Origin: Microlunatus antarcticus
Lineage (GTDB): Bacteria; Actinomycetota; Actinomycetes; Propionibacteriales; Propionibacteriaceae
Direction: 5' to 3'
Assembly (NCBI RefSeq): GCF_014193425.1
Contig: NZ_JACHZG010000001.1
Span: forward strand, 1,240,001 to 1,304,000
Length of the DNA: 64,000 nucleotides
How positions within the stretch are numbered: position 1 is the stretch's first letter; each line of letters opens with the position of its first letter. The position numbers and the translations under genes are program-made. This document shows positions 8,819 through 35,729 of this stretch, in pieces. Under the pieces are notes generated by a model, which saw only the letters and a list, made by a program, of their open reading frames with translations, had not been told where the DNA came from and ran no database searches.

Positions 8819-10120
8819 TTACTGCCCGCGGTCGTGCCAGTGCCGGGCGATGGCGTGGGGCAGGGTGTCGATCACGTCGCCCTGCTCCGCCATCCCGGCG
8901 CGGGTCAGCCGGCGGGTCCGGACCACGGCGAGGAAGCCGAAGGCCCAGGGCAGGTACTGGAAGCAGAAGCCGAGCTTGAAGTCGCGCAGCGTGTACGCGC
9001 CGTCGGGCGCCAGCGCGTCGAGCACGATCCCGATGACGAGGATCGTGGTGAGCGAGGCGGTGAAGCCGCCGACGTTGACGATGCCGGAGGCCACCCCGAG
9101 CCGGGGCGTCGGGTTGAACGAGCGGGCGAAGTCGAAGCCGACCGCCGACGCCGGGCCGTTGGCCGACAGCACGAGCATGAGGATCACGACGACGGGCAGC
9201 GGTGCCGGTCCCGGCCAGAGCAGCACCACGGTCCAGATCACGACGGTGGCGACGAGCACGGTCAGGACGAGGTTGGAGCGGCGGCGCGGGTAGGCCGCGG
9301 TGAGCTGACCGGTGACCGGCAACACGACCAGCCCGGCGAGCACCATCAGGGTCAGCAGCGAGCCGGCGAGCGTCGCGCTGTAGCCCAGGCCGATGGTGAG
9401 GAACGGGAAGCCCCAGAGCAGGGCGAAGACCATCTGGGAGAACTGCGAGGTGAAGTGCGACCACAGACCGAGGCGCGTGCCCGGCTCGGCGAAGGACAGC
9501 CGCAGCTGGCCGACGGCCTCGCGCCAGGTGATCGGCGGCGAGGCCTGCGCCCCGATCGGCGAGTCTCGGATCCCGGCGAGCACGGCGACGCCCACGAGCA
9601 CCCCGATCGCCGCGGCGCCCAGGTAGGCCGGGGTCCACCCGAACGTGTGCAGCACCAGGACCAGCGGGATGGTGGCCGCCACCTGCCCCAGCTGCCCGAG
9701 CAGGCCGGTGACCTGCGTGAGGATCGGCACCCGGCGCGCCGGGAACCAGGACGGGATCAGCCGCAGGACGCTGACGAAGGTCATCGCGTCGCCGGTGCCG
9801 ACGAGCATCCGGGCGACGATCGCGCCGGCGGGCGAGGTCGTGAGGGCCATCAGCACCTGGCCGCCCGCCATGACGAGCGCGCCGAGGGCGACCATCTTGC
9901 GCGACCCGATGCGGTCGACGAGCACCCCCACGGGCACCTGCATCACCGCGTACATGACCAGCTGCAGGACCGCGAAGACCGAGAACAGGGACGCCCCGAT
10001 CGCGAAGCGCGCCGTCGCGTACTCCGCCGCGACGCTCAGCGAGGAGCGCTGGAACACCGCCAGCCCGTACGCGAGGACGCCGACCCCCCAGACCAGCCAG
10101 GCTCGGGAGGGGAAGCGCAC
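8819..10120 (-). CDS. Major facilitator superfamily transporter (second)
   Basis: A 12-helix MFS carrier of about 433 residues. It shows the loop motif VPVGVLVDRIGSRKMVALG between helices 2 and 3 and a shorter echo in the second half. The domain arrangement with SWFPARRVPILTQVTGLLGQLGQ after helix 4 resembles the nitrate/hexuronate-like branch of MFS, but the substrate is not deducible. Three start codons are in frame (GTG 10135, ATG 10129, GTG 10120). The first two overlap a -10-like GAGAAT, so the GTG at 10120, 7 nt after it, is preferred as a leaderless start. It is divergent from the M20 peptidase. Confidence 0.82.
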   Translation of the reverse strand: MRFPSRAWLVWGVGVLAYGLAVFQRSSLSVAAEYATARFAIGASLFSVFAVLQLVMYAVMQVPVGVLVDRIGSRKMVALGALVMAGGQVLMALTTSPAGAIVARMLVGTGDAMTFVSVLRLIPSWFPARRVPILTQVTGLLGQLGQVAATIPLVLVLHTFGWTPAYLGAAAIGVLVGVAVLAGIRDSPIGAQASPPITWREAVGQLRLSFAEPGTRLGLWSHFTSQFSQMVFALLWGFPFLTIGLGYSATLAGSLLTLMVLAGLVVLPVTGQLTAAYPRRRSNLVLTVLVATVVIWTVVLLWPGPAPLPVVVILMLVLSANGPASAVGFDFARSFNPTPRLGVASGIVNVGGFTASLTTILVIGIVLDALAPDGAYTLRDFKLGFCFQYLPWAFGFLAVVRTRRLTRAGMAEQGDVIDTLPHAIARHWHDRGQ

Positions 10121-10179
10121 GTGCCTCATTCTCACCCCTGGCGCCGGGTCGGTCGGGTCGGCCGGACGAGAATGAGCGC
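10121..10179. promoter_or_regulatory. Mirror-image divergent promoter
   Basis: The perfect inverted repeat CTCATTCTC / GAGAATGAG (10125-10133 and 10168-10176) places a GAGAAT hexamer 7 nt before the MFS GTG on the minus strand and 6 nt before the peptidase GTG on the plus strand. Both genes would then be leaderless. The repeat could also be bound by a regulator. Confidence 0.5.
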
Positions 10180-11523
10180 GTGAGCGACGACACGAGGACG
10201 AACGTGCAAGGTCTGGACGCAGCCCCGGACCGCGAGGTGGTCGAGCTCTGCCGGGAGCTGATCCGCATCGACACCACGAACTACGGCTCCGAGCCGGGTC
10301 CGGGGGAGCGCGACGCGGCCGAGCGGGTGGCCGGCTGGCTGGACGAGGTCGGCATCGAGAGCCAGCTCTACGAGTCGGAGCCGCGCCGTACGTCGCTGGT
10401 CGCGCACTGGTCGCCCGAGGGGACCGACGAGAGCCTGCCGCCGCTGCTGGTCCACGGCCACCTCGACGTCGTGCCCGCGAACGCGGACGACTGGAGCGTC
10501 GACCCGTTCTCCGGGGAGATCCAGGACGGCTGCGTCTGGGGCCGCGGCGCGGTCGACATGAAGGACTTCGACGCGATGGTGCTGAGCGTCGTACGGGACC
10601 GCGTCCGGACGGGCCGCGCGCCCCGGCGTCCGATCCGGCTGATCTTCACCGCGGACGAGGAGGCCGGCAGCGGGCTCGGTGGGCGCTGGCTGGTCGAGAA
10701 CCACCCGGAGGTCGTGGAGGGCTGCACCGAGGCGATCGGCGAGGTGGGCGGCTTCTCGCTCACCGTCCGCGACGACCTGCGGCTCTACCTCGTCCAGACG
10801 GCGGAGAAGGGGCTGGCCTGGCTCAACCTCATCGCCGACGGACGCGCCGGGCACGGGTCGTTCCGCAACGACGACAACGCCGTGACCGAGCTCGCCGCCG
10901 CGGTCGGGCGCATCGGGACGTACGAGTGGCCCAACCGCATCACCGCGTCGCAGCAGGCGTTCCTCGAGGCGGTGTCGGAGGCGCTCGGCGTCGAGCTCGA
11001 CACGAACGACGTCGAGCCGACGCTGGCCAAGCTCGGCAGCATCGCGCGCATGGTCGGGGCGACGATGGGCAACACGGCCAACCCGACGATGCTGCGCGCC
11101 GGCTACAAGCACAACGTGATCCCCGGCCGGGCGACCGCGTCGGTGGACGGGCGGTTCGTGCCGGGCGGGCAGGACGCCTTCTTCGAGACCATCACCGAGC
11201 TGCTGGGGGAGAAGGTCCGCTACGAGATCGAGAACGTCCAGCCCGCGGTGGAGACGGAGTTCTCCGGGGCGCTGGTCGAGGCGATGCAGTCATGCCTGGC
11301 CGCCGAGGACCCGGGGGCCAAGGCGGTGCCGTTCCTGATGAGCGGCGGCACGGACGCCAAGGCGTGGGACGCGCTGGGCGTGCGCTGCTTCGGCTTCGCA
11401 CCGCTCCGGCTGCCGCCGGACCTCGACTTCGTCGGCATGTTCCACGGCGTGGACGAGCGGGTACCCGTCGAGTCGCTGGAGTTCGGGGCACGCGTGCTCG
11501 ACCGGTTCCTGGACCAGGCCTGA
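10180..11523 (+). CDS. M20-family zinc peptidase / acyl-amino-acid deacylase
   Basis: A 447-residue member of the M20/M25/M40 family, two-zinc hydrolases that cleave dipeptides or N-acyl amino acids (relatives include DapE and ArgE). Metal-site motifs are clear: VHGHLDVVPA (His and following Asp), GRGAVDMKDFD (bridging Asp), FTADEEAGSGLGG (catalytic Glu pair) and the late SGGTDAKAW with its His partner in MFHGVDERV. The dimerisation lid lies between residues 210 and 340. In many actinobacteria an enzyme of this kind is annotated as a dipeptidase; the exact substrate is open. Confidence 0.9.
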   Translation: MSDDTRTNVQGLDAAPDREVVELCRELIRIDTTNYGSEPGPGERDAAERVAGWLDEVGIESQLYESEPRRTSLVAHWSPEGTDESLPPLLVHGHLDVVPANADDWSVDPFSGEIQDGCVWGRGAVDMKDFDAMVLSVVRDRVRTGRAPRRPIRLIFTADEEAGSGLGGRWLVENHPEVVEGCTEAIGEVGGFSLTVRDDLRLYLVQTAEKGLAWLNLIADGRAGHGSFRNDDNAVTELAAAVGRIGTYEWPNRITASQQAFLEAVSEALGVELDTNDVEPTLAKLGSIARMVGATMGNTANPTMLRAGYKHNVIPGRATASVDGRFVPGGQDAFFETITELLGEKVRYEIENVQPAVETEFSGALVEAMQSCLAAEDPGAKAVPFLMSGGTDAKAWDALGVRCFGFAPLRLPPDLDFVGMFHGVDERVPVESLEFGARVLDRFLDQA

Positions 11524-11590
11524 CCTCACGGCTGAGACGCGCCCCACAAGTCCTCGCAGCCGCTCCGGTCGCGGATTACCCTCGGTCTCG

Positions 11591-11803
11591 ATGATCACGA
11601 GCTACGCCGACGCACGGCCGGTCGACTACGAGGTCCAGAAGGTCCGGCTGCCCCGCGACCTGTCGCGCGGCGCGGTCCGCCAGCTGCTCACGGAACGGTG
11701 CGAGCACGGGGGCTGGGAGCTGACCCGCCTGCGGCGCTACCGCGACGGCACGCGCGACGTCTGGGTGCGCCGCAAGATCATCCGCGCGCGCCTGACGGTC
11801 TGA
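11591..11803 (+). CDS. DUF5703-family small protein
   Basis: A 70-residue protein matching the actinobacterial DUF5703 pattern: VDYEVQKVRLPRDLSRGAVRQLL, then the conserved HGGWELTRLRRYRDGTRDVWVRRK. It is basic and soluble, and its function is unknown. TACCCT lies 8 nt before the ATG with no Shine-Dalgarno site, so the mRNA is probably leaderless. It follows the M20 peptidase, an arrangement I recall from other actinobacterial genomes. Confidence 0.85.
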   Translation: MITSYADARPVDYEVQKVRLPRDLSRGAVRQLLTERCEHGGWELTRLRRYRDGTRDVWVRRKIIRARLTV

Positions 11804-11879
11804 CCTTCCTCGTCGTACGCCCTCGCCCCGGTCACGAAGTCCTTCCGCGCGGCCTCCACGCAGCCGCGTACCGGCGGCA

Positions 11880-11909
11880 CAGCCGCACAGGTTGCGGCCT
11901 GTGCGGCTG
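11880..11909. terminator. Strong hairpin terminator between convergent genes
   Basis: A perfect 12-bp stem CAGCCGCACAGG / CCTGTGCGGCTG with a 6-nt loop, between the DUF5703 gene and the aldo/keto reductase on the opposite strand. No U-tract on either side. It can end transcription in both directions. Confidence 0.8.
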
Positions 11910-11925
11910 ACCCGGAGGTGCGCGG

Positions 11926-12906
11926 CTAGCTCCGGGCGGCGAGGGGCGAGCGCAGCGCGTTCGGCCCACCGGAGACGTCGTCGAGCGCCGAGCTGATCTC
12001 CGGGGGCAGCGTCAGGCCCTCGGTGGCCAGGGCGGGTGCGAGCTGACCCGCCGTCCGGGCGCCGAGCAGGGGAGCGGTGACGCCGGGCGCGTCACGGACC
12101 CACAGGAGGGCGACCTGCAGCGGGGTGAGGTCGAGGCCCTCGGCCGCCCGGCTCACGGCCTCGACGACGCCGCGGCTGCGCGGCTCCAGGTAGGGCTCGA
12201 CGAACCAGGCGAAGTGCTCGCTCGCAGCCCGTGACCCGCGGGGCGTGCCCACGCGGTACTGGCCGGTCAGCACGCCGCGGCCCAGCGGCGACCACGGGAA
12301 GCAGCCCATCCCGAACGCGTGCAGCGCCGGGAGCACCTCGACCTCCGCGCGCCGCGCCAGCAGGGAGTACTCGACCTGCGCGCTCACCAGCTGGCTCCGG
12401 CCCGGCACCGCCCGCTGCCAGGTCGCGGCCTGCGCGGTCTGCCAGCCGACGAAGTTCGAGACGCCGGCGTAGCGGACCCGCCCGCTCGTCACCGCCTGGT
12501 CGACGGCGCTGAGCGACTCCTCCAGCGGTGCGTCGCCCCAGGCGTGCACCTGCCAGAGGTCGAGGTGGTCGGTGCCGAGGCGGGCCAGGGAGGCGTCCAG
12601 GTCGCGGAGCAGCGCGCGCCGGGAGGTGTCGACCACGCGCTCGCCGCGGCGGACGACGAACCCGGCCTTGCTGGCGATCACGACGTCGTCGCGGTGGGTG
12701 ACCTCGTCGACGAGTCGCCCGACCAGGCGCTCGGCGTCGCCGGCCCCGTACGCGGCGGCGGTGTCGATCAGCGTGCCGCCGGCCTCGCAGAACGTCTCGA
12801 GCAGGCCACGGGCCTGCTCCTCGCCGGTGTCGCGGCCCCAGGTGAGCGTGCCGAGCCCGAGCCGTGAGACGACCAGGCCGCTGTCGCCGACGCGTCGTGA
12901 CTCCAC
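11926..12906 (-). CDS. Aldo/keto reductase
   Basis: A 326-residue NADPH-dependent oxidoreductase with the (beta/alpha)8 barrel of the AKR family. Catalytic tetrad positions are visible: IDTAAAYGAGDAERLVG (Asp, Tyr), VIASKAGF (Lys) and DLWQVHAWGD (His). The C-terminal AQVEYSLLARRAEVEVLPALHA and LGARTAGQL are cofactor-binding segments typical of the Tas/YajO-like branch. The GTG at 12906 follows TAGGGT by 7 nt and lacks a Shine-Dalgarno site, consistent with leaderless initiation. It is divergent from the LLM oxidoreductase with 62 nt between starts. The physiological carbonyl substrate is unknown. Confidence 0.9.
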   Translation of the reverse strand: MESRRVGDSGLVVSRLGLGTLTWGRDTGEEQARGLLETFCEAGGTLIDTAAAYGAGDAERLVGRLVDEVTHRDDVVIASKAGFVVRRGERVVDTSRRALLRDLDASLARLGTDHLDLWQVHAWGDAPLEESLSAVDQAVTSGRVRYAGVSNFVGWQTAQAATWQRAVPGRSQLVSAQVEYSLLARRAEVEVLPALHAFGMGCFPWSPLGRGVLTGQYRVGTPRGSRAASEHFAWFVEPYLEPRSRGVVEAVSRAAEGLDLTPLQVALLWVRDAPGVTAPLLGARTAGQLAPALATEGLTLPPEISSALDDVSGGPNALRSPLAARS

Positions 12907-25373: not shown

Positions 25374-28100
25374 TCAGGCCTCCAGGACCTCGTCGTCCCG
25401 GACCGCGGTCGTGCCCCCGACGGCCCCGTCCGCGCGCACGAGGGCCAGCATCTGCGCCTTCGAGGCCACCCCCAGCTCGGCGTAGATGCGGGTGAGCGCC
25501 TTCTCCAGGCTGCGCAGGGAGAGGTAGAGGCGGTCGGCGACCTCCTTGTTCTTCTGGCCCAGCATCAGCAGCCGGACGATCCGCGTCTGCTGCTCGTCCA
25601 GCCGGCTGTTGAGCAGCCGACCCTGCACGTCCTCCGCCGGCGGGGCCCAGGACAGCGCCAGCGCGTGACGTCGCCAGCCCTCCAGCCCGTGGTGGGCGAA
25701 GACGAGCGCCGCCTCGTCGCGGAGCCGGTCCGCCTCAGGCCCGGCGGTGAGCTGACCCAGGCGCCGGGCGAGCGCGAGCAGCGCGCGGGCGCGGCCGACC
25801 TGACCCTCCTCGGCCTCGGCGACGGCCAGCGCGCGGGCGAAGGCGGGCCGGATCTCGAGCGGAGGGGAGACGAGCGCGGCCGCCCGGGCCGCCGCGGCGA
25901 CGGCGCCGGGACCCGCGGGCTCAGGAAGGCCCGCCGCCCGGTGGGCCTGCTTCCCGGCCGCCGGCTCCCCGTCCGCGACCTGGGCCTCGACCAGGTCGGC
26001 CAGCACGAGCCACCGCTGCTCCGGCGGCAGCGGCGGCTGCCGACGCGCCAGGGCCTGGAGCCCCACGACGGCCTCCCGGTACCGCCCGTCGACCAGCTGT
26101 CGTTCGGCCCGGGCCTGCGCGAGCGCCGGCGCCTCCGACGCGTACGCGGCCTCGCCCGGGTGCAGGGTCCCCGGAGGCAAGCCCGTGAGCGTCTCGAGCC
26201 GCACCAGCGCGGGGTCGAGCCCGCGGACGTGCACCGGCCCGGGCAGCGCGAGGTCGACGAGCTCGTCCGCCGTGCGTCGGGCGGCCCCGACCCGCCAGGT
26301 CGCCACCTCGAGCTGGAGGCGGGCGGCAGTCAGGAAGTGGGTGGCGTGGCGGCCGGCCTGCCGGTGCGCGCTGGCGGCCTCGAACAGGTGCTCCTCCGCC
26401 TCGGCGTGGGCGCCCGCCTCGACGAGCACGGTGGCGAGCAGGAAGTCGTCGTACCAGCCGCGGCCCTCGGAGGAGTCGCGCCAGCGCAGCGCCGCCTCGC
26501 GAACGGTGTCGGCCCGGGCGGCTCCGGCCGCGCGCTGCCGGCTCACGTCGACCAGCCGCCAGAGGGCGCGGTCGGCCAGGCTCGCCGAGCGGCTGGCCTG
26601 ACGGGCGCGGTCGAGGTACTTGCGGGCCTGCACGTCCGCGCCGACCAGGAGGCTGTTCCAGGCCGTCAGCGTCATGGTCTCGAAGACGACCGCGGGCCGG
26701 ATCAGCTCGAGCGCCGAGAGCAGCTTCTCCGACGGCACCGCCAGCGCACGGTCGTCGGCGACCTGGCTCAGGAACCCGCGCCACCGGGTCAGCTCCGGCA
26801 GGTCGGCCTCGTCGACGGCCGGGGCCCGCACCGCCTGCTCGAAGGCGTCGCGGGCGTCGAGGAGGTGCCCGGAACGTTCCGCGCGGGCGGTGAGCTGGAG
26901 CCAGTCGTGCGTGGTGGGTGGGTCCGCGTGGCCCACGACGGCCCAGGCCAGGGCCTCGGCGAGGCGGTCGTCGACGGCCGCGTCGGCCCCGGCGAGGGCG
27001 CGGCGGGCCCGGGCGAGCACCTCCGGGGCGGGCGCGGGGGTGTCGAGCGCGTGCAACGCGCTGCGGACCGGGTCGAGCCCGGCCCAGGCTGTGCCCAGCG
27101 CCGCGGCGAGGTCCTGGCGCGCGGTGTGGCCGAGCCGGTCCTCCGCGAGCCAGCCCGACGCGGTGCGCCGCGGACGGTACCCGCCCGGCACCGCCTCGAC
27201 CAGGCGCCGGTCGAGCAGCGACGCGAGCGGCCCGGAGCCGGTCACCCCGTCCAGCACGACGGGCGGCACGGTGCCGCCGAGCGGGAAGCAGGCCAGCGCC
27301 CGGAGCTCGCGCGGCGTCAGGCGCTCCAGGTCCGGCGCCACGACGCTGCGGCTCGTCGCGGACACCGCGAGGCGGAACGGCAGGGTCCGAGACCCCTCGA
27401 GCCGGTCGGGGTCAAGGTGCGCCGCGACCTCGCGGAGCAGCAGCGGGTTGCCGTCGGTGAGCCGGGCCAGGGCCTCGGCCACGGGCGCCGCCACCTGGCG
27501 TCCGGTCCACCCGGCGAGGGCCTCCCGGGCCTCCGCCGCCCCCAGGCCGCCGAGCCGCAGGCGCTCCAGGTCGGCGGCGCCCGGCGGGAACGCCTCGTCG
27601 GGGCAGCTCAGGACGTACGAGACGTCGAAGGTGTGGTTGTGGTGGGCGAGGAAGACCAGGAGCGCGAGCGACTGCGGGTCGCAGCGGTGGAAGTCGTCGG
27701 CGACCACCACCACCGGCCGTGAACGCTCGGGCATCGCGCGGTAGCGCTCGGTGATCCGGCGTCCGAGCTCCTCGGGGTCCAGCCCGTCCTCGACGGCCGA
27801 GGCCACGAGCCCGTCGCTGCCGCTGCGGGCGAAGTCGACCACCCCGCGGACGGTCGGACCGGCGTTCCGGACCGCCGCCCACGGCTCCGACCCGCTGCTC
27901 GCGCTACCGGACAGCCACATCAGGTCGCCCTCGAAGTCTGTCAGCGCCGCGCGCAGCAGGCTCGAGCGTCCTATGCCGCGCGGGCCGGTGACGACCAGCG
28001 TCCGTCCGACCTGGCCGCGCTCCCCGGCGACGGTACGGACCCGGGCGACCTCGTCGGACCGGCCGACGAAGACCTGCGAGCCGCCGCCGTTACCGCCCAC
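25374..28100 (-). CDS. Large LuxR-family regulator with AAA-type ATPase-like domain (LAL type)
   Basis: A 908-residue protein built like LAL regulators: an N-terminal STAND/AAA ATPase-like domain, a long alpha-helical TPR-like middle part (about 400-800), and a C-terminal LuxR helix-turn-helix (RLLMLGQKNKEVADRLYLSLRSLEKALTRIYAELG). The P-loop reads GPRGIGRSS (39-47), with arginine where Walker A has lysine, whereas the Walker B aspartates are intact (VVVVADDFH, 130-138). Nucleotide hydrolysis may therefore be weak or absent. TATCGT lies 6 nt before the GTG at 28100, suggesting leaderless initiation and fixing the start. It is divergent from the cyclase-channel-aquaporin operon, which it may control. 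Confidence 0.86.
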   Translation of the reverse strand: MGGNGGGSQVFVGRSDEVARVRTVAGERGQVGRTLVVTGPRGIGRSSLLRAALTDFEGDLMWLSGSASSGSEPWAAVRNAGPTVRGVVDFARSGSDGLVASAVEDGLDPEELGRRITERYRAMPERSRPVVVVADDFHRCDPQSLALLVFLAHHNHTFDVSYVLSCPDEAFPPGAADLERLRLGGLGAAEAREALAGWTGRQVAAPVAEALARLTDGNPLLLREVAAHLDPDRLEGSRTLPFRLAVSATSRSVVAPDLERLTPRELRALACFPLGGTVPPVVLDGVTGSGPLASLLDRRLVEAVPGGYRPRRTASGWLAEDRLGHTARQDLAAALGTAWAGLDPVRSALHALDTPAPAPEVLARARRALAGADAAVDDRLAEALAWAVVGHADPPTTHDWLQLTARAERSGHLLDARDAFEQAVRAPAVDEADLPELTRWRGFLSQVADDRALAVPSEKLLSALELIRPAVVFETMTLTAWNSLLVGADVQARKYLDRARQASRSASLADRALWRLVDVSRQRAAGAARADTVREAALRWRDSSEGRGWYDDFLLATVLVEAGAHAEAEEHLFEAASAHRQAGRHATHFLTAARLQLEVATWRVGAARRTADELVDLALPGPVHVRGLDPALVRLETLTGLPPGTLHPGEAAYASEAPALAQARAERQLVDGRYREAVVGLQALARRQPPLPPEQRWLVLADLVEAQVADGEPAAGKQAHRAAGLPEPAGPGAVAAAARAAALVSPPLEIRPAFARALAVAEAEEGQVGRARALLALARRLGQLTAGPEADRLRDEAALVFAHHGLEGWRRHALALSWAPPAEDVQGRLLNSRLDEQQTRIVRLLMLGQKNKEVADRLYLSLRSLEKALTRIYAELGVASKAQMLALVRADGAVGGTTAVRDDEVLEA

Positions 28101-28257
28101 GTCCGCACGATATCCGTACCGGGCCCGCCCGAAAACCCGCCCCGCCCCGCACAGCCCAGGACCGGACGGTTCAAGGTCGGTCCCGGCCCCTAATTTTCGG
28201 ACTCGGACGATGTCGCCCGTGCCACCCCCGAGCACGAGCGCGCGTCGAGGAGGAACC

Positions 28258-28698
28258 ATCGCTGCACAGGTAGGTGAGCTGGGACCCGCGCTGGCGTCCT
28301 GGAACGACTTCGTGGGCACCGCCGCCGCCGACGAGTCCGGACCGACGACCACCGGCCCGAGCCTGTACGAGGTGGCCGGCCTGGACCCGGCCGCCTGGAT
28401 CATCCTCAGCGTCGACCTGGACTCGGCCGGGCCGGCGTCGAGCCTCGTGGTCTACGCCCTCGACCGCCGTGTGCACGGCGTCGGCTCGTACGCCGACCTC
28501 GTCGAGCTGGGCCAGCAGACCGGGGAGCTCGGCGTCACGGCGTTCGAGCTGACCGGTCCGGAGGCCCGCCGGCTCGGCGCGTCCGCCTTCGAACGGCTCT
28601 CCGTGCGTCTCGTCGCCCGTCCCTTCCACGACCAGCGGCTCGTCGTCCAGGCGCGCCACGCGCTGCCCGCCGGCGCCGACCGCTCCACGAACCGCTGA
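28258..28698 (+). CDS. Unknown small protein opening the cyclase-channel operon
   Basis: About 146 residues, soluble, with no family I recognise. It contains LGPALASWNDFVGTAAADE, two beta-rich stretches (WIILSVDLDSAGPASSLVVYALDRRVHGVG; FERLSVRLVARPFHDQRLVVQARHAL) and a helix between them, so an alpha/beta fold is likely. A very good Shine-Dalgarno site GAGGAGG (28247-28253) is 4 nt before ATC, the same layout as infC; the in-frame ATG at 28210 has none and would add 16 proline-rich residues. It is followed after 52 nt by the cyclase-like gene. Its position suggests an accessory or ligand-binding role in that module. Confidence 0.7.
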   Translation: MAAQVGELGPALASWNDFVGTAAADESGPTTTGPSLYEVAGLDPAAWIILSVDLDSAGPASSLVVYALDRRVHGVGSYADLVELGQQTGELGVTAFELTGPEARRLGASAFERLSVRLVARPFHDQRLVVQARHALPAGADRSTNR

Positions 28699-28750
28699 GC
28701 CAGACCCGTCCGACCCTGCACCCGCACCACCCGACGACCCCCGGAGTCCC

Positions 28751-30922
28751 GTGTCCCTCGAGAACGCCCCCACGCCCGCCCTGTCCGCGCGCCCGCGCCG
28801 CCGGCGGCGCACCTACCTCTGGGGCCGGCTGGGCATCCGCTCCAAGCTGCTCGCGATGCTGCTGGTCGTCAGCATCCTGTCGATCCTCGCGGCGAGCTTC
28901 TTCGCCTACCGCTCGTCCAGCCGGGCGCTGACCGCGCAGGCGACGGAGCAGCTGACGTCGATCCGCGACGCCCGGACGCGGCAGATCCAGCAGACCTTCA
29001 CCAGCCTGGGCCGTTCGGCCGTGCTGAACAGCGCGAACGCCACGGCCACGGAGGCCATGAGCGCCTTCAGCCGGGACTACGCCGAGCTGCAGGGCCGGGC
29101 GGCGACGTCAGGCGAACAGAGCGCGCTCAACGGCTACTACGAGGACGTCTTCCTGCCCGAGCTCCGGAAGAACACGGACGGCGACGTGACCGCGCAGAGC
29201 TTCGAGCCGACGGGCAACGCCGCGCGCTACCTCCAGTCGCGCTACACCGTGCCGAGCAAGGGCGACTTCGACGCGGCGATCAAGGTCGACGACGCGGGCG
29301 ACGGCTCGGCCTGGTCGGCCGACCACGCCAAGTACCACCCCTACTTCCGACAGGTCGTGGAGTCCTACGGCTACGACGACGCCCTGCTCGTCGACCCCGA
29401 CGGCAACGTCGTCTACACCGCGTACAAGGGTGTCGACCTCGGCACGAACCTGCTGACCGGGCCCTACAAGGACTCCGGCCTCGAGGACGCGTTCCGCGCC
29501 GTGCTGCGCTCGAACACGGTCAACGACGTGAGCGTCGTCGACTTCGAGCCGTACGCCCCCTCCTACGACGTCCCCATCGGCTTCGCCCTGTCCCCGATCG
29601 GGGTCGACGGCAAGCTCACGGGCGTGCTCGTCGTCCAGCTGCCCACGACGGCCATCAACGACGTCATGACGTCCAACGGGCAGTGGGCCCAGACCGGGCT
29701 GGGGGAGAGCGGCGAGAGCTATCTCGTCGGGCCGGACGGGACGCTGCGGTCGACGTCGCGCCTGCTCGAGGAGGACCCCGAGGCCTACCGGGCCGCCGTC
29801 GTCGCCCAGGGCACGCCGCCTCAGGTGGCCGACCGGATCGTCGCGGACAAGAACCCGATCCTGCGTCAGGACGTGGAGACCCCGGCCGTCGAGGAGGCCC
29901 TGCGGGGACAGACCGGCACCTCGGTCGAGACCGACTACCTGGGCCGGCGCGTGCTCACCGCGTACGCCCCCGTCGCGATCAACGGCGTCAACTGGGCCGT
30001 GATCTCGCAGATCGACGAGGACGAGGCGCTGCGACCGGTCAGCGACCTGCTCCGCACGCTCGGTCTCACCACGCTCGGCATCGTCCTGGTCATCACGCTC
30101 GCGTCCCTGCTGCTCGCCCGGGTCTTCACCCGCCCCGTCGACCGGCTGGTCAGCGGCGTCCGCCAGGTCGCCGGTGGTGACCTGGACGCGCGGGTGGACG
30201 TCCGGGGCCAGGACGAGTTCGCGGACCTCGCCACCGCGTTCAACGACATGGGGTCCAGCCTCAGCACCAAGCAGGAGCTGCTGGACGCCGAGATGGCCGA
30301 GAACGACCGGCTGCTCGGCACCCTCATGCCGGCCGCCGTGGCCGAGCGCTACCGGACCGGCGAGACGAACATCGCCGAGGAGCACACCGACGTCTCGGTC
30401 CTCTACGCGACGATCGACAACCTCGACGCGCTGGGTCAGGGCGAGGACGTGTCGGAGGGGGTCAGCCTGCTGAACGAGCTCGTCGCGAGCTTCGACCGCG
30501 CCGCCGAGCGGACGGGCGTGGAGAAGGTCCGCGTGCTGCGCTCGGGCTACATCGCCAGCTGCGGGCTCGTCGTCCCCCGGGTCGACCACGCGCTGCGCTC
30601 GGTCGACTTCGCCACCGAGATGTGGCAGGCGGTCCAGCTGTTCAGCGCCCAGCACGGCGTCCAGCTCGGCCTGCGGGTCGGCATCGACTCGGGCAAGGTG
30701 ACCAGCGGGCTCGTGGGAGGCGCCGCCATCTACGACCTGTGGGGCGACAGCGTCAACCTCGCCTTCCGCACCCAGGCGGCGAACCGCGAGCCCGGCATCT
30801 ACCTGACCGAGGCCGTCCACCAGCGGGTGCGGGACGCCCACACCTTCAGCCCGGCCGGGGAGATCACCACCAAGACCGGCGAGGAACCCGTCTGGCGGCT
30901 GGAGGTGGACGCCCGTGTCTGA
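28751..30922 (+). CDS. Membrane sensor with HAMP and degenerate class III adenylyl cyclase domain
   Basis: A 723-residue receptor: transmembrane helix 33-53, a large extracellular Cache-like sensor (about 60-430), helix 435-457, a HAMP linker (458-510), and a class III cyclase domain (about 545-705). The cyclase keeps the adenine-selecting Lys592 and Asp662, and the transition-state Asn669 and Arg673 (WGDSVNLAFR). Both metal-binding aspartates are replaced: Thr554 in VLYATIDNL (usually FADIVGF) and Ser598 in VRVLRSGYIA (usually KTIGDAYMA). It may bind a nucleotide without making cAMP. GGAG is 4 nt before the GTG. It overlaps the channel gene by 8 nt. Rv1647 of M. tuberculosis, a cyclase, sits in the equivalent interval between tsnR and pheS. 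Confidence 0.88.
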   Translation: MSLENAPTPALSARPRRRRRTYLWGRLGIRSKLLAMLLVVSILSILAASFFAYRSSSRALTAQATEQLTSIRDARTRQIQQTFTSLGRSAVLNSANATATEAMSAFSRDYAELQGRAATSGEQSALNGYYEDVFLPELRKNTDGDVTAQSFEPTGNAARYLQSRYTVPSKGDFDAAIKVDDAGDGSAWSADHAKYHPYFRQVVESYGYDDALLVDPDGNVVYTAYKGVDLGTNLLTGPYKDSGLEDAFRAVLRSNTVNDVSVVDFEPYAPSYDVPIGFALSPIGVDGKLTGVLVVQLPTTAINDVMTSNGQWAQTGLGESGESYLVGPDGTLRSTSRLLEEDPEAYRAAVVAQGTPPQVADRIVADKNPILRQDVETPAVEEALRGQTGTSVETDYLGRRVLTAYAPVAINGVNWAVISQIDEDEALRPVSDLLRTLGLTTLGIVLVITLASLLLARVFTRPVDRLVSGVRQVAGGDLDARVDVRGQDEFADLATAFNDMGSSLSTKQELLDAEMAENDRLLGTLMPAAVAERYRTGETNIAEEHTDVSVLYATIDNLDALGQGEDVSEGVSLLNELVASFDRAAERTGVEKVRVLRSGYIASCGLVVPRVDHALRSVDFATEMWQAVQLFSAQHGVQLGLRVGIDSGKVTSGLVGGAAIYDLWGDSVNLAFRTQAANREPGIYLTEAVHQRVRDAHTFSPAGEITTKTGEEPVWRLEVDARV

Positions 30923-32366
30923 CCTGGTCCAGCAGCCGTGGTTCGGCTGGGCGGTGCTGGTGGTCGTCGGGCTGCCCGTCCTGACGATCGTGCTCACCGA
31001 GGTCGAGGGCCGCCTCGTCCGCCGGCGCAGCTCCATGGCCCGGCCCGTCCGCCTGCTGCGGGCGTTCATCCTGCCCGTGGGCGCGCTGCTGGTGCTGCTC
31101 ACCCAGGTCCCCAACTCCGTCGTGTCGAACGAGAGCGGGATCGTCAAGATCACGGCGACCGTGCTGGGCCTGACGGTGCTCGTCTTCGTGCTGTCGGGGC
31201 TCAACACCGCGCTGTTCCTCAACGCCTCGGCGGCGTCGTGGCGCGGCCGGATGCCGTCGATCTTCATCGACATCGTCCGCATCATCATCATCGGCGTCGG
31301 GCTCGCCGTGCTGCTGTCCGTGGTCTGGGGCGCCGACGTCGGTGGCCTCTTCGCCGCGCTCGGCGTGACCTCGATCGTCCTCGGCCTCATCCTGCAGAAC
31401 GCGCTCGGCTCCATCGTCGGCGGGCTGCTGCTCCTCTTCGAGCAGCCCTTCAAGCTGGGGGACTGGATCGAGTACAGCAAGACGCGGGGCCGGATCGTCG
31501 GGGTGAACTGGCGCGCGGTCCACATCGAGGTCGACAACGGCATCATGATCGTCCCGAACTCCTCGCTCGCCGAGGGGGCGTTCACCAACCTCAGCCGCCC
31601 CACCACGCAGTGGACCGAGACGGTCGAGCTGACCTTCACCGAGAACGACCCGCCGCGCGACGTCATCGACCTCTGCAACGAGGTCGCGCGGGGGCTGCCG
31701 CGGCTGGCGCCCGGGCACGAGCCCAGCACCGTCCGCACCGGGTCCGGAAAGTACGCGACCTCGATCCCGCTGACGACGTTCGCCGACAGCGGCGAGGCCA
31801 CCGCCGAGCTGCTCACCCGCCTCTGGTACGCGGCACGCCGCGCGAACCTGGCGCTGAACGGCGCGGACATCTGGCAGGGCGAGAGCACCGCCGACGTGGA
31901 GGTCCTGCTCGCCCGCGCCGCGACGCGGCTGCGGCTCGAAGCCGACCAGGTGGCCGAGCTGGCCCCCCGGATGGACCTCGAGCGCTGGGCGCCGGGCGAG
32001 GTGCTCCAGCGCGTGGGGCAGGTGCCGACCGCGATGCGGTGGATCAGCGAGGGCACGGTGGCCCTCCGGGTGCCCGCCCCGCTCGGCGGAGAGCTGGGCG
32101 TGCTCAACCTCGGGCCGGGCGACCTCCTCGGGCAGACCGCGCTCACCCGCACCGGGACGCCGTGGACGCTCACCGCGGTCAGCGAGGTGACCGTCCTGGT
32201 TCTCCCGTACGACGTCCTGACGGACCTGGTCCGCGCGGACAACCGGCTCGCACGCGAGCTGGGGGTCGAGATCGACCAGCGCAAGGCCGCCGTCGACGCG
32301 GCCCAGGTGCAGACCGACGAACCGGCGATGCGGCGATCGACCTCAGGGGCCGCCGCGCGAGCCTGA
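30915..32366 (+). CDS. MscS-family channel with C-terminal cyclic-nucleotide-binding-like domain (bCNG type)
   Basis: A 483-residue inner-membrane channel. Helices lie at about 10-30, 45-65, 80-102 and 118-140, followed by the MscS pore helix and beta-domain signature (FAALGVTSIVLGLILQNALG, FEQPFKLGDWIEY, VPNSSLAEGAFTN). A cyclic-nucleotide-binding-like domain occupies about 345-455. This combination defines the bacterial cyclic-nucleotide-gated (bCNG) branch of MscS. In the phosphate-binding cassette (LLGQTALTRTGTPWTLTAVS) glutamine 407 replaces the usual Glu, and no Arg occupies the phosphate-ligand position (Pro416/Trp417). Translation is coupled to the cyclase-like gene by an 8-nt overlap, a strong hint that the two proteins work together. 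Confidence 0.9.
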   Translation: MSDLVQQPWFGWAVLVVVGLPVLTIVLTEVEGRLVRRRSSMARPVRLLRAFILPVGALLVLLTQVPNSVVSNESGIVKITATVLGLTVLVFVLSGLNTALFLNASAASWRGRMPSIFIDIVRIIIIGVGLAVLLSVVWGADVGGLFAALGVTSIVLGLILQNALGSIVGGLLLLFEQPFKLGDWIEYSKTRGRIVGVNWRAVHIEVDNGIMIVPNSSLAEGAFTNLSRPTTQWTETVELTFTENDPPRDVIDLCNEVARGLPRLAPGHEPSTVRTGSGKYATSIPLTTFADSGEATAELLTRLWYAARRANLALNGADIWQGESTADVEVLLARAATRLRLEADQVAELAPRMDLERWAPGEVLQRVGQVPTAMRWISEGTVALRVPAPLGGELGVLNLGPGDLLGQTALTRTGTPWTLTAVSEVTVLVLPYDVLTDLVRADNRLARELGVEIDQRKAAVDAAQVQTDEPAMRRSTSGAAARA

Positions 32367-32471
32367 CTGTTCTTTCGGTGCGCGTACAGCAAGATGACCT
32401 CGATCAGCTGCGACGCCGCACCTCCACCACGATCATCCTGTGACCCACCTCTGAACCAGAAGGACCCCCTC

Positions 32472-33257
32472 ATGAACGAACCCACCCTGGGAGCCAAGCT
32501 CGGAGCCGAGGCTCTCGGCACCTTCGGCCTCGTCTTCGGCGGCTGCGGCAGCGCCGTCCTGGCCGCCAAGTTCCTCACCGAGGACGGCGTGCAGCTCGGC
32601 ATCGGCTTCGTCGGTGTCGCCCTCGCCTTCGGCCTCACCGTGCTCACCGGCGCGTACGCCTTCGGCCACGTCTCCGGCGGCCACTTCAACCCCGCGGTCA
32701 CCATCGGCCTCGCCGTGGCCAAGCGCTTCGAGTGGAAGGGCGTCCTGCCCTACATCGTCACGCAGATCGTCTCCGGCACGCTCGCCGCGCTGGTGCTCTA
32801 CATCATCGCCAGCGGCAAGTCCGGCTTCAGCGCCAGCGAGAGCGGCTTCGCGTCCAACGGCTACGGCGCGCACTCACCGGGCGGCTACGGCCTCGGCGCG
32901 GCGCTGCTGACCGAGATCGTCATGACGGCCGCGTTCCTCTACGTGATCCTCGGCGCCACCGACGACCGCGCGCCCAAGGGCTTCGCCCCGATCGCGATCG
33001 GCCTCGCGCTGACCCTCATCCACCTGATCAGCATCCCGGTCACCAACACCTCGGTGAACCCGGCCCGCTCGATCGCGGTGGCCATCTTCGCCGGCCCCGC
33101 AGCGCTGTCGCAGCTCTGGCTGTTCATCGTCGCCCCGATCATCGGTGCGGCCATCGCCGGCGCCAGCTACGCCGCCATCACCGGTGCCCGGCCGAACGCC
33201 GTCGACGTCGGCGTCGCCAACAACCCGGGCGTCGGGACGGCCAAGAAGGGTCGCTGA
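32472..33257 (+). CDS. aqpZ: Aquaporin Z-type water channel (second copy)
   Basis: A 261-residue MIP channel with two NPA boxes (GGHFNPAVT and TSVNPARS) and the AqpZ-type filter residues, hence water-selective. It is closer to E. coli AqpZ than the first copy at 6.4 kb: the segments [22 protein letters not shown] and [17 protein letters not shown] match the E. coli pattern. The first ~85 residues of the two copies are almost identical, pointing to a fairly recent duplication or gene conversion. AGAAGGA precedes the ATG. It lies 105 nt after the mechanosensitive channel on the same strand, so rapid water flow and tension-gated solute release may be expressed together. Confidence 0.96.
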
Positions 33258-33276
33258 CCCTCACCCGTACGCACCT

Positions 33277-33313
33277 CCTGAGCCCGTCGAAGCACTGCTT
33301 CGGCGGGCTCAGG
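33277..33313. terminator. REP-derived hairpin terminator
   Basis: A near-perfect palindrome: CCTGAGCCCG / CGGGCTCAGG, one mismatch, then CGAAGCA / TGCTTCG. The core TGAGCCCGTCGAAG belongs to the same repeat family as at 19.7 kb. It separates the convergent aquaporin and GNAT-like genes. A second partial copy (TGAGCCCGTCGA) lies at 33335-33346. Confidence 0.8.
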
Positions 33314-33386
33314 CACGTCCGGGGGCAACGTTCGTGAGCCCGTCGACTGCTCTCGTCCGGGGTGGGGCGTCGCTCGGGGCAGACGC

Positions 33387-34391
33387 CTATGTCCTAGCGC
33401 GAGCGGTCTCGACCTGCACGGACGAAGCTCCAACCGATGTCGTCTCCGTGCCGCTCCGGTCGACCTCGACCGGAGATGGGCTCGCACTGCCGGAACCAGA
33501 AGCAGGGGGCGCCGCGGAGACTTCGGAGTCGGGTGGCTGCTGACGGCGCCGGAGGGCGGCCGAGAGTCTGACTCGGACGACCCGGTACCCCAGCATGCGC
33601 TGGAAGTGACGCAGGCCCTCGGGAAGGTTGCTCATCGTGGCGGTGTCGACCAGGTACCGCACGCCACGGGCGACCAGCGCTTCCGCGAGCACCGAGCTCA
33701 TCAGGTAGCGGGCGTTGCTCGCGTCCGTGGAGTCCTCCAGCGTGCGAAAGTAGGCCAGCATCGACCATGCCCCGTCGGTCGGCACCACGGCCATGAGCAG
33801 CGGGACGTCGTCTCGGGAGTAGGCGACGAGCCACAGGCGGTGATCGAGCAGACGCGAGTTGTCGACGTCCGCGGAGCGGTATCTCTCCTGGGGATGGATC
33901 CGCTCCCTGCTTTCGGACAGCGCGACCAGACGCCGGCGTTCGGCGACATCGTCGACGGGTTCCCAGCGCACCCCGGCCCTCTCTGCGGCCCGCGTCTTGC
34001 GTCGGAGTGTCTGCTTCGACCGCCCCTCCGCGTACTGCTTCGGCGTCTTGGGCAGGATCAGCACGCTGGCGACCTCGTGCAGCGGCGTACGGATGAAGGC
34101 GGTCTTGAGCGTCCGTCGCCCGAAGTGGGCCAGCCCTTGGCGAATGACCCGGCCCTCGATCGAGTCCGAGACGTCGATCGTGAGGACGGGGAGAGACCGC
34201 GCGGCACGGAGGGCTCTGACAGACCTCGGGAGCTGTTCGAGGACGCCGAGACCTCGTGAGCCGGCGGCGGTCGCGTACGACGTGAAGAACGCGGAGACCA
34301 GTTCTTCGGCGCCGCCGTCCTCGAGCTCCGTGGGACTGCCACCGACCTCTTGCCGGCGGCCCAGCACGTGGCGCCAGGCCTGGTGCACCAA
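33387..34391 (-). CDS. GNAT/FemAB-like acyltransferase, uncharacterised
   Basis: About 334 residues. The middle region KQYAEGRSKQTLRRKTRAAERAGVRWEPV and the later DVPLLMAVVPTDGAWSMLAYFRTLEDSTDASNARYLMSSVLAEALVARGVRYL follow the pattern of GNAT acyltransferases of the FemAB/CelD-like group, several of which act in cell-envelope or polysaccharide modification. The C-terminal 50 residues are low-complexity and probably disordered. TTG at 34391, preceded by GGGAG at 7 nt, is the best start; GTG at 34388 or 34448 are possible. It is divergent from pheS. The substrate is unknown; nearby polysaccharide genes make an envelope role reasonable. Confidence 0.7.
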   Translation of the reverse strand: MVHQAWRHVLGRRQEVGGSPTELEDGGAEELVSAFFTSYATAAGSRGLGVLEQLPRSVRALRAARSLPVLTIDVSDSIEGRVIRQGLAHFGRRTLKTAFIRTPLHEVASVLILPKTPKQYAEGRSKQTLRRKTRAAERAGVRWEPVDDVAERRRLVALSESRERIHPQERYRSADVDNSRLLDHRLWLVAYSRDDVPLLMAVVPTDGAWSMLAYFRTLEDSTDASNARYLMSSVLAEALVARGVRYLVDTATMSNLPEGLRHFQRMLGYRVVRVRLSAALRRRQQPPDSEVSAAPPASGSGSASPSPVEVDRSGTETTSVGASSVQVETARART

Positions 34392-34569
34392 CTCAGTTCT
34401 CCCTGCATCTTCACGTGGCTCGACAGAGCTTCGATTCTCCCAGACCACGCTGTCGAAGGAGGTCGATACGGGTGGAAGAGCACGCTGCGGCGGGCGCGAC
34501 AGGCCGTGGCCGCCGTGCGGCTGGCCGTGCCCTGCGGAACGTGGTCGCGGACCCACCCGGAACGTTCCT

Positions 34570-34619
34570 AGACTGCTGGGGTTTGTGACGAGTACCGCCC
34601 CCAGGAGGTCGAGCACGCG
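34570..34619 (+). promoter_or_regulatory. pheS promoter -10 and ribosome binding site
   Basis: TAGACT at 34570-34575 is a good -10 just after the palindrome GGAACGTTCC (34559-34568), which could be an operator. AGGAGG follows near 34603-34608, about 11 nt before the ATG. No tRNA-dependent leader (T-box) is visible. Confidence 0.5.
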
Positions 34620-35729
34620 ATGTCGGGCCCGAACAAGACGTACGACCCGGTCCAGGTGACCCCGTTGGACGCCGAGCACGTCGAGGCGATGGTGGCGGAC
34701 GCCCTCGCCGCCTTCGAGGCCGCCGGCAGCACGGAGGAGCTGAAGGCCGCGCGGCTCGCGCACGCCGGCGACCGGTCGCCCATCGCGCTGGCCAACCGGG
34801 AGATCGGCGCGCTGCCCCCTCAGGGTCGCAAGGACGCCGGGGCCCGGGTCGGACGGGCGCGCGGCACGATCAACGCGGCGCTCAAGGCGCGTGAGGCCGA
34901 GATCGGCACCGTCGAGCTCGAGCGCCGGCTGCGCGAGGAGCGCGTCGACGTCACGCTGCCCGTCGCGCTGGGCCCGGTCGGGGCCGTGCACCCGATCACC
35001 GCCCTGATGAACGTCATGGAGGACGTCTTCGTCGCCATGGGCTGGGAGGTCGCCGAGGGCCCCGAGCTCGAGGCCGAGTGGCTGAACTTCGACGCCCTCA
35101 ACTTCGTCCCCGACCACCCGGCGCGCACGATGCAGGACACCCTCTTCGTCGAGCCGGAGGGCAGCAACCTCGTGCTGCGCACCCACACCTCGCCGGTGCA
35201 GGCGCGCACCATGCTGACCCGCGAGCCCCCGATCTACGTCGTCTGCCCGGGCAAGGTCTACCGCGCCGACGAGTACGACGCGACGCACACGCCCGTGTTC
35301 CACCAGATCGAGGGCCTCGTCGTCGACCGCGGCATCACGCTCGCGCACCTGCGCGGCACGCTGGACCACTTCGCGCGGGCGATGTTCGGCGACACCCGGA
35401 CGCGCATGCGACCCAACTACTTCCCCTTCACCGAGCCGTCGGCCGAGGTCGACCTGCTCTGCTTCGTCTGCCACGGCGACTCGGTCGGCAGTCCCGACCG
35501 CCCGTGCAAGACCTGCCGAAGCGAGGGCTGGATCGAGTGGGGCGGCTGCGGCGTGGTCAACCCGCGGGTGCTGGCGGCCTGCGGGATCGACCCCGAGGTC
35601 TACTCGGGCTTCGCCTTCGGCATGGGGGTCGAGCGGACGTTGATGTTCCGGAACGCGGCGGAGGACATGCGCGACATGGTCGAGGGTGACGTGCGGTTCA
35701 GCCGCTCGCTCGTGGGGACCGCCCGATGA
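34620..35729 (+). CDS. pheS: Phenylalanyl-tRNA synthetase alpha subunit
   Basis: PheS carries the catalytic site of the alpha2-beta2 enzyme that charges tRNA-Phe. The 369-residue protein has the N-terminal coiled-coil arm that contacts tRNA (about 15-95) and class II motifs: motif 1 around [28 protein letters not shown], motif 2 in [21 protein letters not shown], and motif 3 in [15 protein letters not shown] CxxC...CxxC-like set (CFVCHG, PCKTC) is typical. Its stop overlaps the pheT start (ATGA), giving equal subunit supply. Confidence 0.97.

Follow-up and report, generated by a model that had tools for sequence, protein, structure and literature searches.

The window analysed here is a 64,000-nucleotide stretch of the Microlunatus antarcticus genome (contig NZ_JACHZG010000001.1, positions 1,240,001 to 1,304,000). 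Between a tsnR-like gene and pheS it carries two adjoining plus-strand genes, for a cyclase-like receptor and an MscS-type channel, which are the subject of this report; beside them lie genes for a LAL-type regulator, a small protein and an aquaporin. The receptor gene (28751..30922) encodes P0002, a protein of 723 residues in which a putative double Cache (dCache) sensor and a HAMP relay precede a class III cyclase-like domain, as assigned from Pfam, residue tables, an AlphaFold2 model and Foldseek. The channel gene (30915..32366) shares 8 bp with it and encodes P0003, of 483 residues, in which Pfam and alignments place an MscS-type channel ahead of a C-terminal cyclic-nucleotide-binding (CNB) fold. 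Both frames are open and have a strong coding pattern.

P0002 matches the Pfam models Guanylate_cyc (7.3e-29) and HAMP, and reaches 43.5 bits with dCache_1 against a cut-off of 45. Its AlphaFold2 model, built from 49 sequences, has a predicted local distance difference test score (pLDDT) of 86.3; a mixed alpha/beta region at about residues 60-420 is confident and flanked by long helices, and the HAMP region (about 476-505) is poor. The cyclase part resembles solved cyclases, with TM-scores to target of 0.81-0.88 (5o5l, 5o5k, 4p2f and 5oyh; Foldseek). P0003 matches MS_channel_2nd (9.9e-18) and cNMP_binding (3.3e-10), and its predicted domain order, MscS domain followed by a C-terminal CNB fold, is that of the bacterial cyclic-nucleotide-gated (bCNG) channels.

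The cyclase and channel genes form a conserved pair

Receptor and channel genes of these types are conserved as a two-gene unit. In a sample of 117 genomes of the family, four (the window genome included) hold a full-length cyclase of this type and all four have the channel next to it; two further cyclase matches and one channel match are weak and partial. In a sample of 346 genomes of the phylum, again counting that of the window, the channel was found at an E value of 1e-30 in 12, and the cyclase type adjoins it in every one. Nine of these twelve are close relatives and three are deep (G147, G202 and G424); in the deep ones (L136, L134 and L135, respectively) the channel has a cyclase-like gene on each side. 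When deep relatives were searched within the class, they were found in 2 of 66 genomes, both of one genus.

The arrangement of the two genes was then read from 80 named loci, the best 80 of at least 530 relatives and mostly from Mycobacteriaceae and Microbacteriaceae. The channel lies downstream of the cyclase in 79 of the 80, some of which are cut by contig ends, and the commonest junction, with the starts as chosen by the script, is a 4 bp overlap (38/79), nearly all others falling within 14 bp. Two copies of the pair lie on one contig stretch in L097, L109, G581, G547, G603 and G515. Among 198 genomes of the genus of G190, which is mycobacterial by its tree position, the cyclase and the channel of this family are each present in 160: 158 genomes have both, 36 have neither, two have only the channel (G579 and G640) and two only the cyclase (G565 and G605, weak matches). 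These counts come from two presence tables compared by eye and record presence, not adjacency genome by genome.

The two proteins also diverge together, with a correlation of 0.96 between cyclase and channel distances over 85 pairs. Both the cyclase and the channel of the family genome G073 have Microbacterium loci as their nearest neighbours, which would follow from joint movement of the two genes. One locus, L065, was considered as a natural cyclase-channel fusion and rejected, since its sequence reads as if the frame changes near the end of the cyclase.

Nucleotide sites of the receptor and the channel

Of the features of a class III cyclase, the window protein has the fold and the base-recognition Asp but lacks both metal-binding Asps: the first (Asp1) is T554 and the second (Asp2) is S598. 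To place these changes, we tabulated the same positions in 94 close-family sequences. The set is what remained of 102 rows after removal of seven deep ones and one fragment, with matches below 35% of the query length excluded, and it includes second copies from one genome (L097, L109) and perhaps near-identical species. At the Asp2 position the residue is Asp in two, Glu in nine and non-acidic in 83, and the Gly ahead of it has become Arg or His in 91. Asp1 is acidic (Asp or Glu) in 92, the Thr of the window protein being one of the two exceptions. The first metal column holds no Asp in any of the seven deep rows, one of them being gapped there; L015, L016, L017 and L028 have Asp at the second, with a normal-looking motif only in L015 and L016.

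Control cyclases, which keep these residues, speak against an alignment error as the cause of the missing Asp: Asp1 is retained in 10 of 10 other actinobacterial cyclase domains and the Asp2 motif in nine, the second motif of the tenth (L027) not being picked up by the simple pattern. The window genome's other cyclase (L164) likewise has both metal Asps. That gene (G000:C1:2924998-2926408) diverges from an adjoining one for a CNB protein with canonical residues. Since the second metal ligand is lost in almost all of the family, and both are lost in the window protein, a homodimer should not make cyclic AMP (cAMP), and the cyclase half of P0002 looks like a pseudo-cyclase, predicted to be unable to do so.

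The channel is altered at its nucleotide site as well. The Glu of the CNB site is replaced by Q407. In place of the Arg stands P416 if the channel is aligned with 2pqq, and W417 if it is aligned with the CNB domain of MlotiK1 (3co2). Among the 91 channel rows with a residue here (95 less four without one; the 91 include three deep rows and one, L066, that is frame-broken in this part), Glu is present in none, and Arg in three at column 416 and in none at column 417. The stretch that replaces the site, G-x-T-x-L-T-R, is conserved across the channel rows. Chain 3co2 itself has Trp at the place of the Arg, as in W417, which we take to be an engineered replacement of the cAMP-binding residue. Seven other CNB proteins were found in the window genome; by a simple pattern three show the canonical Glu and Arg, and the other four did not match it. 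With the phosphate-binding Glu lost, and nearly always the Arg as well, the channel would not be expected to read cAMP in the usual way.

The conservation of the pair with apparently broken sites suggests that a chemical relay has been replaced by direct contact. The loss of both sites, with linkage and folds retained, speaks for a relay from protein to protein and against a diffusible messenger. In the mechanism we propose, an outside signal would bind the double-Cache sensor, the receptor would change shape through the HAMP relay and pass the change to the CNB domain of the channel by direct contact, and the contact would tune the tension at which the channel opens. As weak support, the divergence of the CNB domain has a partial correlation of 0.29 with that of the cyclase domain, against -0.03 with the membrane part of its own channel. 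The order of cyclase domain over membrane part held in 500 of 500 subsamples, and that of cyclase domain over the channel's own beta-domain in 466 of 500. From these sequence comparisons we put the probability that the receptor is a pseudo-cyclase and gates the channel through contact instead of cAMP at about 50%.

Several observations weigh against this reading. CNB divergence tracks the dCache part almost equally (partial correlation 0.26), so the signal is not specific to a contact between cyclase and CNB domains, and uneven rates could cause the partial correlations; shared descent or joint transfer would also make the two trees agree. Ten of the 94 close-family cyclases have an acidic residue at both metal positions, and one of them, L107 from Mycolicibacterium vaccae (9989-12148), is the only one with Asp at both, although Lys, Asn and Arg are replaced in it by His, Asp and Gln. 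In the channel, column 418 is Arg in 11 of the 91 rows, which matters should the CNB alignment be shifted by one column, and the model of the channel, made from a single sequence, is unusable (pLDDT 44.6). The linkage has exceptions too. Of the 22 phylum genomes with a cyclase match, ten have no channel match; nine of these match only part of the cyclase protein, and in the tenth, G272, there are two long cyclases (29-31% identical) and a channel-like fragment at a contig edge. At L094 (2106-4256) no channel was found downstream of the cyclase; what is apparently the same organism carries the complete pair at L120. Finally, the base-recognition Asp, D662 in P0002, is present in all 94 close-family rows, so that a nucleotide may still be bound.

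The last point also underlies an unlikely alternative, in which the cyclase domain would serve as a nucleotide sensor: it would bind ATP or some other nucleotide, leave it uncyclised and, along with the Cache signal, report energy state or crowding to the channel. Besides the invariant Asp, the second base position is Lys or Arg in 79 of the 94, and both the acidic Asp1 of most of the family and the Arg or His ahead of Asp2 could fit such a site. However, the Asn and Arg positions are only partly conserved (55/94 and 56/94), and the window protein itself has lost Asp1.

We regard it as unlikely that the domain is instead a C2-type half, which would form a heterodimer with an active partner and make a cyclic nucleotide that the channel reads in an unusual manner. 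The window protein retains K592, N669 and R673 in addition to D662, and K, D, N and R are the mammalian C2 set; moreover, AC9 tops the profile search, matched in both its cyclase domains, and a possible partner with both metal Asps exists in the genome's one other cyclase. Yet the complete K/D/N/R set occurs in only 18 of the 94 close-family rows, a search of the window genome gave no close second cyclase, and the Glu that would contact the cyclic nucleotide is missing from all 91 channels. Unusual catalysis is improbable as well. A one-metal or differently liganded site would here make a cyclic nucleotide while the CNB domain has moved to another ligand, which would suit the acidic Asp1, the eleven sequences with Glu or Asp at the Asp2 position and the conserved replacement stretch in the channel, but not the 83 non-acidic residues at Asp2 or the Gln found at the transition-state Arg in 31 of the 94.

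Neighbouring genes and the tsnR-pheS gap

The first-pass annotation of the locus had joined five genes into an osmotic-signalling module, and its gene positions stand, apart from two shifted starts. The first is that of the LAL-type ATPase/LuxR regulator (25374..28100, minus strand), which matches AAA_16 (5.6e-14) and falls below the cut-off for the LuxR helix-turn-helix (22.6 bits against 23.5; Pfam). Its upstream part, 28104-28403, has a weak coding pattern by codon-position composition, and an ATG start at 28403 is therefore doubtful as too far upstream; the next listed in-frame start is GTG 28100, and the true start is probably near there. The small protein without an assigned family (28210..28698, plus strand) has a candidate in-frame start at ATG 28210, a coding codon pattern as measured over 28258-28695 and relatives whose similarity begins at about 28276; it has no Pfam or NCBIfam match at 0.01. 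The aquaporin Z gene (32472..33257, plus strand) scores 353.5 bits with its NCBIfam model, whose cut-off is 256. DNA similarity to G059 starts at 32459, 13 bp upstream of ATG 32472, and this start appears more likely than 32394. Between the aquaporin and pheS there is a minus-strand open reading frame (33387-35474), the middle of which looks acyltransferase-like by eye and which has no Pfam match at 0.01.

That all five proteins act together is highly improbable. Four of the genes share one strand, and at one Agreia locus (L047) the channel likewise has an aquaporin as its neighbour. A scan of 28050-33450 found no sigma-70-like promoter, a weak point in favour, as it covered one promoter type and the chance expectation is near zero too. 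The genomes of the same genus speak against the module. G088 has the order tsnR-LAL-aquaporin-pheS and G059 tsnR-aquaporin-pheS, in both cases without the pair, and in G098, G018, G041, G074, G107 and G114 none of the queried genes lies between tsnR and pheS; in all eight of these genomes the pair is absent from the tsnR-pheS position and has no full-length matches elsewhere. The relatives of the small gene are all unlinked, namely one elsewhere in the window genome, at 47% identity, and one in each of four more genomes of the genus (41-44%), every one away from the locus and three of the five with one stop codon. In the family sample the small gene is confined to the genus and not linked to the pair.

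Outside the genus the picture is the same. Agreia L047 is the only one of the 80 named loci with the aquaporin, and the LAL gene, the small gene, tsnR and pheS occur in none of them; none of the five was found in 11 further regions with the pair. Contig ends truncate several of the loci (L095, L101, L122, L123 and L125 among them), and there the absence of the aquaporin is uninformative. Larger gene groups beside the pair look lineage-specific with the codon-position gene caller. Co-occurrence in relatives, on which the module had been staked, was thus found for the cyclase and the channel, whose degenerate nucleotide sites and joint conservation were borne out, and not for the LAL gene, the small gene or the aquaporin, which drop out as members.

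The altered nucleotide sites themselves were correctly read in all three proteins concerned, that is T554/S598 in the receptor, Q407 with P416/W417 in the channel and, in the LAL protein, an Arg in place of the Walker A Lys (GPRGIGRSS). The view that this last change belongs to a coordinated loss does not hold, as the LAL protein of G088 has the same Arg where there is no pair. The neighbourhood is ordinary, around a conserved and unusual pair. Scarcely credible, finally, is the idea that the pair is a decaying remnant without function in this genome, since the loss of both Asps and the long branch of the window cyclase (0.75) are set against open, strongly coding frames, an identity of 39-49% to those close-family sequences that were aligned and a confident predicted fold.

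The locus had further been suggested to descend from that of the cyclase Rv1647, which we take to occupy the tsnR-pheS position in M. tuberculosis. Of three genomes examined in the genus of G190, two, G190 and G212, have in the gap a gene for a distant cyclase-like protein (E values of 5.7e-7 and 4.4e-8), and G266 has none. We infer from its place that this gap gene is Rv1647. G190 and G212 carry the window-type pair elsewhere in the genome, and in the tree the gap proteins are separated from the window-type cyclases by very long branches; the label active on tree rows rests on motif rather than on known activity, and neither gap protein was found to show both Asp motifs. With the gap protein and the pair in separate places, descent of the pair from an Rv1647-type locus is not supported.

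Relation to known systems and meaning

Channels in which an MscS domain is joined to a CNB domain are the bCNG channels, reportedly the subject of work by Caldwell in 2010 and Malcolm in 2012. P0003 is like them in having an MscS pore and beta-domain followed by a CNB domain, here beside a cyclase-like gene. It differs in that the window-type channels lack the Glu (91/91) and the Arg (88 or 91 of 91, depending on the column), and gating by a cyclic nucleotide is not expected. The CNB part also resembles that of a family 2B encapsulin, which is a shell protein and not a channel: window positions 31938-32288 match the model NF041163 at 5e-9, far under its cut-off. PDB entries 9bje and 9bix, labelled Crp/Fnr regulators and presumably family 2B encapsulins, are weak matches to the same domain.

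Among cyclases, P0002 is like the mammalian-like class III enzymes (Rv1625c/Cya, AC9 and soluble guanylate cyclase) in sequence profile, in fold (TM-score 0.81 with 5o5l and 0.82 with 4p2f) and in D662, and differs from them in the replacement of both metal Asps and in the Cache sensor in front. A similar arrangement is that of M. tuberculosis, where Rv2434c, an MscS-CNB channel, is assumed to adjoin Rv2435c, a dCache cyclase-like protein; this likeness is one of gene layout. Rv2435c is described as having a double Cache domain (PMC4822843), both proteins are named in one paper (PMC2447327) and expression of Rv2435c is given in another (PMC3938503). Mycobacterial cyclase-like proteins thought to be inactive have a precedent in Rv1359 and MSMEG_0545. 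Both lack the first metal Asp, a different loss from that of the family described here, in which it is mainly the second that is gone. Five cyclases annotated in H37Rv are without demonstrated activity, Rv1359 among them; the part of the paper seen mentions no channel (PMC3961136). A literature search on the association of cyclase, MscS and CNB gave no paper about such a pair, judged by titles and the first lines of abstracts and with most subscription journals outside its scope. The pair would be a variant on the bCNG and cyclase theme, new in having altered sites at both ends.

Our broader account is more tentative. A messenger circuit may have lost its maker and its reader together while the operon and the domain types were kept and spread, leaving a contact-gated receptor-channel that works through two former nucleotide domains; if so, mycobacteria would commonly have a receptor-gated tension channel, and so would many Microbacteriaceae.

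Actinobacterial cyclase-like and CNB-like genes are generally assigned to cAMP signalling, and if the pair works without cAMP, many such annotations would be wrong. Were the contact mechanism true, it would be an uncharacterised way for an outside ligand to set the opening of a channel, and one open to direct test. The main claim made for this widespread pair is cheap to test, and the pair would offer a clean two-gene system in which to study how an enzyme and a receptor turn jointly into a protein-protein switch.

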